From contig CACWNW010000020.1 of assembly GCA_902762305.1 (NCBI GenBank), positions 1 to 40,473 on the forward strand: 40,473 nucleotides of DNA, in the 5' to 3' direction. Shown here piece by piece: positions 33,132-35,090 of this stretch. Within the stretch, counting starts at the first letter, position 1; each line of letters opens with the position of its first letter. The translations under genes and the position numbers were made by a program. Source of the stretch: Fibrobacter succinogenes. Lineage in GTDB: Bacteria > Fibrobacterota > Fibrobacteria > Fibrobacterales > Fibrobacteraceae. The notes beneath the pieces were generated by a model. That model was given only the letters and a program-made list of their open reading frames with translations, was not told where the DNA came from and ran no database searches.

Positions 33132-35090
33132 TTATCTGTTCGGACGATATTCAGAAGAAGTCAAGTTAAAGCCGAGAACGATTTCGCCCTTATTTTCACT
33201 ACGGCTATCTTCCGATTCGAGGGTAATTTTGAACACTAGGTATTCATAATCCGAAGCAATACTAACTTTTTCAAATGCATTGGTTGTGCTGTAAGAACCA
33301 CCAATAAACACACCCGGATTATTGAAGTTAAGACTCAGCGGTTCATTCAATGAACTCGACATGTAGGGAACGCTCAAATCAACATTGGCATCATCCAAAT
33401 AATAGTAGTCGTCGTTCGTACCATAAACTTCAAGATCAAAGTTCTGCGGAATCTTACCGATATTCGCAATATCATTACCGCTACTTAGCCAGGCAATTGC
33501 GGCAGTGGCAGGATTACTCGCGCTTCCCGGGTTTTCAATCACCATCCAAATTTCAGACTTGCCCCTGTTATTCACGCGGGTCCTCAACTTACTAATACTG
33601 CCATTCCAGAAACGAGAATCGTAGTTATAATCAGGCTTCGCTCCAATATCATCAAATACAAGGTACTTATAGGTCGGAGCCTTTTTCGTCGACGAAGTAA
33701 AGGCCAGCGGATTAGAGGTCAAGAGCAAAGCCTTAACAACTTCCGGATGCCAACGATAGAACGGATTAACAGACAGAAGGTTAGAAACCATACCAGCGGT
33801 GTATGCCGCGGCCATTTCGGTACCATCATAGAACGGCTGGTAATAATACTGCTTGTTATTATTCGTCTGCGTGTAGGTTCTAGCAAGGTCATCCATCATC
33901 ACATGAGTGTAGTTATAGATTTCCGGCTTCTGAGAGCAATCAGCGCATACCCGCGTCGAAGTGTAGTTGGTAACAGTATTGTTGAACGGTTCAATAGCGC
34001 CCACCGTGATAGCATTTGCTGCATACGCCTTCGAGTTCAAGTAACCGGGATTCGTTTTATCCAGTCCATAGTTACCAGCAGGAACGAATTCGATCGTACG
34101 GTTCTGGTAAATAAAGTTGTCCAAATCCCTGGCGTGAGAAGAATAACCCGTAGATTTAGAAATGCCGTTATTACGCACACCTATGTAGACCTGCGGAGTT
34201 CTACCAGCCGGATTATCAGGATTACCATTCTTACCCACATAAATTACAGAATGATTCGAAGATTCCTTCACCAGAGCGTAAGTCCTGGAGTCTCTCATTT
34301 CATAACCCGGAGCCACATTGAAAGATTCCGAACGATTATTCCTGATATAGCCAACAGGCCTATAATAACCAAGTTGAACAGGAAGAGCATCGGCACCCAT
34401 GTAAACGCCCACGTCCGTGGCCTTGTCATCATACCAGTTCGGTACTTTGGAAGCCTTAGAAAGGGTGTTCTTCACATAACTATATTGCTTGTAAGAAATT
34501 GTCTGGTTGGAATTATATGGTGAAGTCTGGGAAGTACTGCCGTTTGCACTATTGAAAGAAACCGTATACCCGTGACCGTTCGCATTCGTCCAGCCCGGAG
34601 TGCTCTGGCTAGTCATGGGTTCAGAATTCGAAAACATATAGCCCGCATATTCGGTGAGATTATCCTCACGAGATTCTTCCGTCCTAATAAAAATAGCTCC
34701 CAGACGGCTTCTATAATAAGCCCAGTTGTAATTACAATATCCACCCAAGCAATTATCCGTTTTGTCTACATAGTAACGTCTCAGGAAGTGATTCGCATTT
34801 GTATTGAAGCCACCATCCACCATACGATTGTTAGTCATATAAAGCGACCTGTATGCGCCCGCAATAGCCTTCACATTACTTGGCATACCCGTTTTCTGCA
34901 AAGAATGTGTCTCTAAAGAAGGACCAACTTTCTGTTGTTCATTCTTTTGGACCTTAGCGTAGTCCACATTTTTGTAGACCATCGGAGAGTTCATTTTGCT
35001 CGCCTTGCGGCCCAGAAGGTCATAATTACTTGTAGCGGCACTGACACCAATGCAGCCGAGAGTTAATGCAATAGGAATTATTTTATTCAT
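33132..35090 (-). CDS. Exported subtilisin-fold (S8-like) protein with Glu at the catalytic Ser position
   Basis: A 652-residue secreted protein; signal peptide MNKIIPIALTLGCIGVSA. Residues about 330-465 carry the C-terminal half of an S8 subtilase: TIEFVPAGNYG (oxyanion Asn 340), AYAANAITVGAIEPFNN, then YDGTEMAAAYTAGMVSNLL (422-440) and HPEVVKALLLTSN. In active subtilases the motif is GTSMAAP; here Glu 425 takes the place of the nucleophile Ser. No convincing DTG or HGTHVAG motif is seen upstream, so all three catalytic residues seem to be lost. The fold is probably kept as a binding or structural domain. The first 320 residues are rich in Asn, Tyr and Ser. The gene is more AT-rich than most neighbours. 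AGGGGA lies directly before the ATG, and a TATATT -10 is at 35132-35127, giving a leader of about 30 bases. Confidence 0.8.
   Translation of the reverse strand: MNKIIPIALTLGCIGVSAATSNYDLLGRKASKMNSPMVYKNVDYAKVQKNEQQKVGPSLETHSLQKTGMPSNVKAIAGAYRSLYMTNNRMVDGGFNTNANHFLRRYYVDKTDNCLGGYCNYNWAYYRSRLGAIFIRTEESREDNLTEYAGYMFSNSEPMTSQSTPGWTNANGHGYTVSFNSANGSTSQTSPYNSNQTISYKQYSYVKNTLSKASKVPNWYDDKATDVGVYMGADALPVQLGYYRPVGYIRNNRSESFNVAPGYEMRDSRTYALVKESSNHSVIYVGKNGNPDNPAGRTPQVYIGVRNNGISKSTGYSSHARDLDNFIYQNRTIEFVPAGNYGLDKTNPGYLNSKAYAANAITVGAIEPFNNTVTNYTSTRVCADCSQKPEIYNYTHVMMDDLARTYTQTNNNKQYYYQPFYDGTEMAAAYTAGMVSNLLSVNPFYRWHPEVVKALLLTSNPLAFTSSTKKAPTYKYLVFDDIGAKPDYNYDSRFWNGSISKLRTRVNNRGKSEIWMVIENPGSASNPATAAIAWLSSGNDIANIGKIPQNFDLEVYGTNDDYYYLDDANVDLSVPYMSSSLNEPLSLNFNNPGVFIGGSYSTTNAFEKVSIASDYEYLVFKITLESEDSRSENKGEIVLGFNLTSSEYRPNR

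Follow-up and report, generated by a model that had tools for sequence, protein, structure and literature searches.

A secreted subtilase-like protein of Fibrobacter succinogenes with glutamate at the nucleophile position, and its family in the Fibrobacteraceae

Background

What becomes of a subtilase whose catalytic serine has been replaced by a glutamate, and is such a replacement an accident of one gene or the property of a family? The question is raised by a gene of the window, by which we mean the whole 40,473-nt stretch of Fibrobacter succinogenes DNA that was analysed (contig CACWNW010000020.1). An initial annotation, made from the sequence alone, had described its product as a secreted pseudo-subtilase that may bind rather than cut, or be a phylum-specific surface protein. 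Pseudoproteases are usually recognised by scattered catalytic losses; here, Glu repeatedly replaces the nucleophile, within a large, recent and tandemly expanded bacterial family in which active-looking and dead members are found side by side. Its members are secreted proteins, so far unexplained, of rumen bacteria that degrade fibre.

Gene, fold and domain architecture

The open reading frame is real and is encoded on the minus strand (Table 1), the plus strand carrying stops. The long clean frame initially described is indeed intact over 652 amino acids, with the precision that the coding strand is the minus one. Its signal-peptide-like start and the plausible Shine-Dalgarno sequence AAAAAGGACAGGGGAA upstream of the ATG at 35090 also agree with the first description. 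The gene is flanked by murB (plus strand, convergent) and guaA (plus strand, divergent), with no operon partners between the two. This guaA neighbourhood holds a single family copy in the window genome versus an array of four Glu-type copies in L105. One terminator-like hairpin was found in the stretch versus about 1.9 expected by chance, which makes it a weak signal. FISUMP-domain proteins are present in the window and in the genome.

Pfam Peptidase_S8 (PF00082) matches residues 313-460 over profile positions 127-273 (E 8.4e-13), and the score of 48.7 bits, compared with a curated cut-off of 21.8, places the protein in S8 at the level of the fold. The AlphaFold (AF2) model has a mean pLDDT of 82.8, with most blocks within residues 200-645 above 90, and superposes on the alkaline protease KP-43 with Z 24.4 and an rmsd of 2.9 A over 360 residues (Foldseek E 4e-15). 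On this predicted structure the window protein has a subtilase fold, and the superposition proposed in the initial annotation thus returned the expected fold and not an unrelated one.

A PDB sequence search with the window protein alone gave nothing meaningful (best E 0.42); sequence matches were obtained with Ser-type relatives or with the family profile as query, the latter reaching KP-43 at 2.9e-22 and SubHal at 1.5e-20. When the model of the Ser-type relative L052 is superposed on KP-43, Z is 35.6 and the rmsd 2.5 over 365 residues; this model also aligns along the pro-forms of Tk-SP (3afg_B, from residue 25) and subtilisin E (3whi_A, from residue 94), and a prodomain is therefore the most likely identity of the region that precedes the subtilase domain. 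NCBIfam returned no family for the window protein at E up to 1, including the T9SS C-terminal sorting domain (Por_Secre_tail, TIGR04183), and a search of a viral collection returned no relative.

Table 1. Coordinates of the features of the gene and of its product in the window
Feature	Position	Strand	Remark
Terminator-like hairpin 3' of the stop codon	33077..33105	-	13-bp stem and T tail; weak
Secreted pseudo-subtilase ORF	33132..35090	-	652 aa and stop codon
C-terminal beta domain, residues 490-646	33153..33623	-	Like KP-43 and Tk-SP; KP-43 aligned over model residues 203-645
Subtilase domain, residues 200-485	33636..34493	-	Pfam and model superposition
E425, position of the Ser221 nucleophile	33816..33818	-	Predicted first turn of the central helix 424-441
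N340, position of the oxyanion-hole Asn155, kept	34071..34073	-	Asn in 49/49 Ser-His and 59/64 Glu members; Asp or Glu in 11/13 others
R266, position of catalytic His64, lost	34293..34295	-	His in 49/49 Ser-His members; Arg, Leu, Ile or Ala in most Glu members
E264, two residues ahead of the former His	34299..34301	-	100% conserved in the main Glu clade (58/58)
A233, position of catalytic Asp32, lost	34392..34394	-	Glu (39) or Asp (10) in the 49 Ser-His members (L052, L036, L048 and others); Val, Ala or Ile in most Glu members
N-terminal region, residues 70-198, counterpart of the Ser-type prodomain	34497..34883	-	Via the L052 model; indirect for the window protein
N-terminal linear motif NYDLLGRK..KMNSPMVYKNVDYAK, residues 22-46	34953..35027	-	Conserved; low-pLDDT stretch
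Signal peptide, residues 1 to about 19 (MNKIIPIALTLGCIGVSAA)	35034..35090	-	Cleavage site placed by eye

Active-site classification of the family

The S8 motifs quoted in the initial annotation are all present (PAGN 337-340, NAITVGAI 359-366, GTEMAAAYTAG 423-433 and HPEVVKALLL 448-457), and E425 falls in the Ser column both in the Pfam S8 alignment and in an ungapped family column that reads GTS-AATP in Ser-type relatives versus GTE-xAA in the Glu group. The absence of Asp and His motifs is confirmed: A233 and R266 occupy the two corresponding columns. All three catalytic residues are therefore replaced, the canonical columns of the window protein contain no intact triad, and the protein lacks the triad of an active S8 enzyme. 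It does keep the oxyanion-hole Asn as N340, a feature absent from the first description. A subtilase fold, a degenerate triad and selective maintenance (see below) make it a pseudo-subtilase of the CspC kind; this is membership of a functional class and no proof of common descent with CspC.

We surveyed the active site in 126 full-length family members, numbering residues by the window protein. Forty-nine contain a Ser-His-acid triad with the oxyanion Asn, 64 carry Glu at the nucleophile and 13 have neither. The survey of this Glu among homologues, which had been singled out as a check, shows it to be the majority residue: it is carried by 64 of the 126 members, and within the main clade by 58 of 65 rows. 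In the Ser-His members, the Asp32 column aligns without gap to subtilisin BPN', for which we used what we take to be the reference sequence (D32, H64, N155 and S221 fall where they should). The Ser-type sisters, with a mostly Glu-His-Ser triad read from the alignment, would be an unusual variant among subtilases.

The 13 members with neither arrangement point to a second regularity. An acid at oxyanion position 340 occurs in 11 of them, versus 4 of the 64 Glu members and none of the 49 Ser-His members. The 425/340 pairs of the 11 are Ala/Asp, Ala/Glu (twice), Gly/Glu, His/Glu, Pro/Asp, Arg/Asp (twice), Ser/Glu (twice) and Trp/Glu, and the exchange is also seen inside the main clade (L002 and L003 Arg/Asp, L012 Gly/Glu, L043 Ser/Glu). 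Two members fetched later conform to the same rule (L153 Ala/Asp and L154 Ala/Glu; 2/2). The exceptions are four Glu members which also have Asp340 and two broken members, with Met and Gln at 425, which have neither charge. Asp at position 425 is absent from every row.

Over the 77 rows without a Ser-His dyad, the coupling has a Fisher p of 1.4e-8, to be read with the descent relations between rows in mind. In tree-independent pairs, the two traits change in opposite ways in 5-6 of 7 and in the same way in none, for which a sign test gives a median p of 0.06 (range 0.03-0.22), a borderline result. Of the 583 columns tested, none is more strongly associated with Glu425 than column 340. The presence of either Glu425 or an oxyanion acid in most dead members suggests that the dead active site has been selected rather than left to decay.

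A salt bridge between E425 and the residue at the old His position was considered and rejected: Arg or Lys is found there in only 20 of the 64 Glu members (17 Arg, 3 Lys) and the position is otherwise Leu, Ile or Ala, so that such a bridge is no general rule.

Proposed role of the Glu-type proteins

We propose that the window protein is a secreted pseudoprotease of the KP-43 type which has lost its triad, binds instead of cutting, and has its former active site plugged by a carboxylate; we consider this reading probable as a whole. The oxyanion hole of subtilisin is formed by the NH of residue 221, the side chain of residue 155 and the N-terminus of the central helix. From homology and covariation, we infer that one carboxylate, from either 425 or 340, would sit in this former hole, replace the oxyanion of the reaction, cap the buried central helix at its positive N-terminus, and both close the dead site for good and stabilise it. 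The choice of site would be coupled: Glu425 with Asn340, or another residue at 425 with Asp or Glu at 340. Such a plug would best explain why an enzyme that no longer works retains a single negative charge at its oxyanion hole.

Binding instead of cutting is the best-supported reading that we infer, and its biological role is most likely that of a binding protein of the cell surface or the periplasm. Less certainly, the protein may be periplasmic or exposed at the cell surface, the prodomain-like segment may stay uncleaved in Glu-types, and the ligand may be a peptide, a protein or a small molecule, with binding surfaces that would vary among tandem paralogues.

Distribution of the family

Strong matches (E below 1e-80) were found only in Fibrobacteraceae, in four genera, in a scan of 168 genomes of the phylum. 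The protein is thus lineage-restricted, as had been supposed, but its family is confined to the Fibrobacteraceae and does not extend over the whole phylum. A contig labelled Candidatus Saccharibacteria (L013) also carries a Fibrobacter-family member and is most likely mis-binned. In the window genome, all ten S8 matches coincide with places matching the pseudo-subtilase family. The copies often occur in tandem arrays, and Ser-type relatives with a plausible Glu/Asp-His-Ser triad exist alongside Glu-types, also in the window genome.

This coexistence, observed in many genomes (G000, G004, G144, G145, G151, G147, G142, G131 and G113), could mean that the Ser-type paralogues have partners, inhibitors or decoys in the Glu-types, which would bind the substrates, prodomains or inhibitors of the Ser-types and tune their activity. 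Inactive subtilase paralogues are regulators elsewhere, as CspA and CspC are with CspB (PMC6636752). We nevertheless regard this explanation as unlikely, if the least unlikely of the alternatives. Most of the arrays that we looked at hold a single type, the window copy is solitary, with murB on one side and guaA on the other, and only broken forms were found in eight near-complete genomes (G029, G148, G120, G152 and G118, together with G003, G115 and G001), which argues against an obligatory active paralogue in the same cell. The genomes are partly drafts, so the absence of Ser-types may in places be a gap.

As a clue to function, the genome context was of little use: the window copy has no operon partners, and radical-SAM neighbours were seen near only three array loci. 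At L048:1304-3087, L109:129-2464 and L128:1-2429, a PapB-like radical SAM/SPASM enzyme lies near the family arrays, as do one or two Ser-rich proteins of about 200-220 aa that resemble lipoproteins; these genes possibly form a peptide-modification system.

Origin of Glu425

Ser codons at position 425 are AGT or AGC in 50 of 51 cases and Glu codons are GAA or GAG, so that three base changes are needed to pass from one to the other. Most Glu rows (58 of 64) belong to one main clade, and Glu425 is also found in a second group, made up of L027, L096 and L107 and placed among the Ser-types. A single origin of Glu was rejected by the AU test (p 0.027), a value which becomes 0.094 once the neighbouring long-branch row L146 is admitted; two origins are therefore likely, though unproven.

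This history leaves some room for Glu425 as the founder residue of one radiating clade, fixed by chance or by the preference of the helix N-terminus and bearing no relation to the oxyanion hole, while the other broken forms drift. Glu is common in the first turn of helices, the 58 of 64 rows belong together, and a single origin is not rejected with L146 included. The exchange between 425 and 340, found within the main clade itself and in the two rows added later, speaks against this explanation, which we hold to be doubtful and somewhat less likely than a regulatory partnership.

Conserved residues and selective maintenance

Besides E264, the main Glu clade has K388-P389-E390 and H448-P449-E450 invariant. 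Together, E425, E264 and Asn340 might form a new, serine-independent carboxylate (glutamic-type) hydrolase, derived from a serine protease on the subtilase scaffold. Conservation holds at these three positions but not at the former His and Asp columns, which vary freely, and the arrangement would be comparable in principle to the sedolisins, which have the same fold and use Glu and Asp beside Ser. However, the family also maintains paralogues in which 425 is Gln, Met, Arg, Gly or Pro, E264 becomes Lys or Met in the second Glu group and the groove strand (SLG in subtilisin) is replaced by diverse residues, all of which makes such an enzyme improbable.

Glu-type pairs have dN/dS values of mostly 0.1-0.35 with open frames, indicating purifying selection, and this bears out the initial view of a maintained protein rather than a decayed gene. 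Some copies are broken by stops (single-copy TAG, TAA or TGA) and a 117-aa remnant lies at G000:C13:51578, but decay of the window gene itself is scarcely conceivable, given its intact frame, these dN/dS values and its well-predicted fold. Single stop codons had been flagged in a first scan inside L021, L028 and L040; L021 was later found to be an open frame of 631 aa.

Conservation is also marked at the N-terminus. Inside the signal peptide, Gly12 (81%) and Cys13 (91%; 35052-35054) are conserved in the main Glu clade with an imperfect lipobox, and the window protein may be a lipoprotein. The following motif of about 25 residues is probably unordered, as it is in the model, yet its conservation exceeds that of much of the folded domain: P36-M37-V38 of NYDLLGRK..KMNSPMVYKN are 100% conserved in the main Glu clade, and the DxLGR core, common to Ser-types, occurs in 192 of the 231 frames of the family. 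The motif may serve in processing, sorting or binding. An unrelated secreted protein with a C-terminal DUF7305 (L160:2777-4894, G000:C31:40776 onward) carries a motif like it, VYDILGRKYDKVTAQRVIKN, behind the signal peptide (E 0.028), and the relatives of this protein are without it; an N-terminal tag common to the L160 protein and the subtilase family is possible.

Comparison with known systems

KP-43 (1wmd) and SubHal (5fax), both S8, combine a subtilase domain and a C-terminal beta domain as the window protein does. KP-43 is the best match by structure, for the window protein and for the Ser-type relative alike, and by profile; it is an active Asp-His-Ser protease, whereas the window protein has all three residues replaced. 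Tk-SP (3afg, 9ues) adds a prodomain to the same two domains, which is the form followed by the Ser-type model; it is an active enzyme, at 15-18% identity.

Sedolisins (S53) have a subtilase-related fold with Asp at the oxyanion position and acidic catalytic residues, and one of them, kumamolisin, is among the structural matches of the window protein (Z 21.2). They keep a Ser nucleophile, unlike the window protein, in which the Ser-Glu-Asp triad, oxyanion Asp and SGTSxxxP of sedolisins are replaced by a site without nucleophile Ser, with Asn340 and with GTEMAAAY.

In the open-access literature, we found no subtilase with Glu for Ser, no Fibrobacter pseudo-subtilase, and none of a fixed Glu, its exchange with an oxyanion residue, or Glu-His-Ser sisters. 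According to an old idea, active sites are under strain, and filling the oxyanion hole may make a dead enzyme more stable; as the negative charge swaps here between the two sides of this hole, mutagenesis can test the idea directly.

CspC of Clostridioides difficile has the pseudotriad G485/T170/D105 and an uncleaved prodomain and, with CspA, is a maintained subtilase-fold pseudoprotease with a degenerate triad, a precedent for a non-catalytic role; its triad is Gly/Thr/Asp and not Glu, these are spore proteins of Bacillota, and the portion of the paper at our disposal reports no exchange of the 425/340 type (PMC6636752). PIMMS2 of Plasmodium, a subtilisin-like pseudoenzyme that has lost the HGT and GTS motifs, keeps the oxyanion Asn in a dead site like the window protein, but is eukaryotic and membrane-anchored, with no Glu reported (PMC5520436). 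Pseudo-subtilases as such are thus already known.
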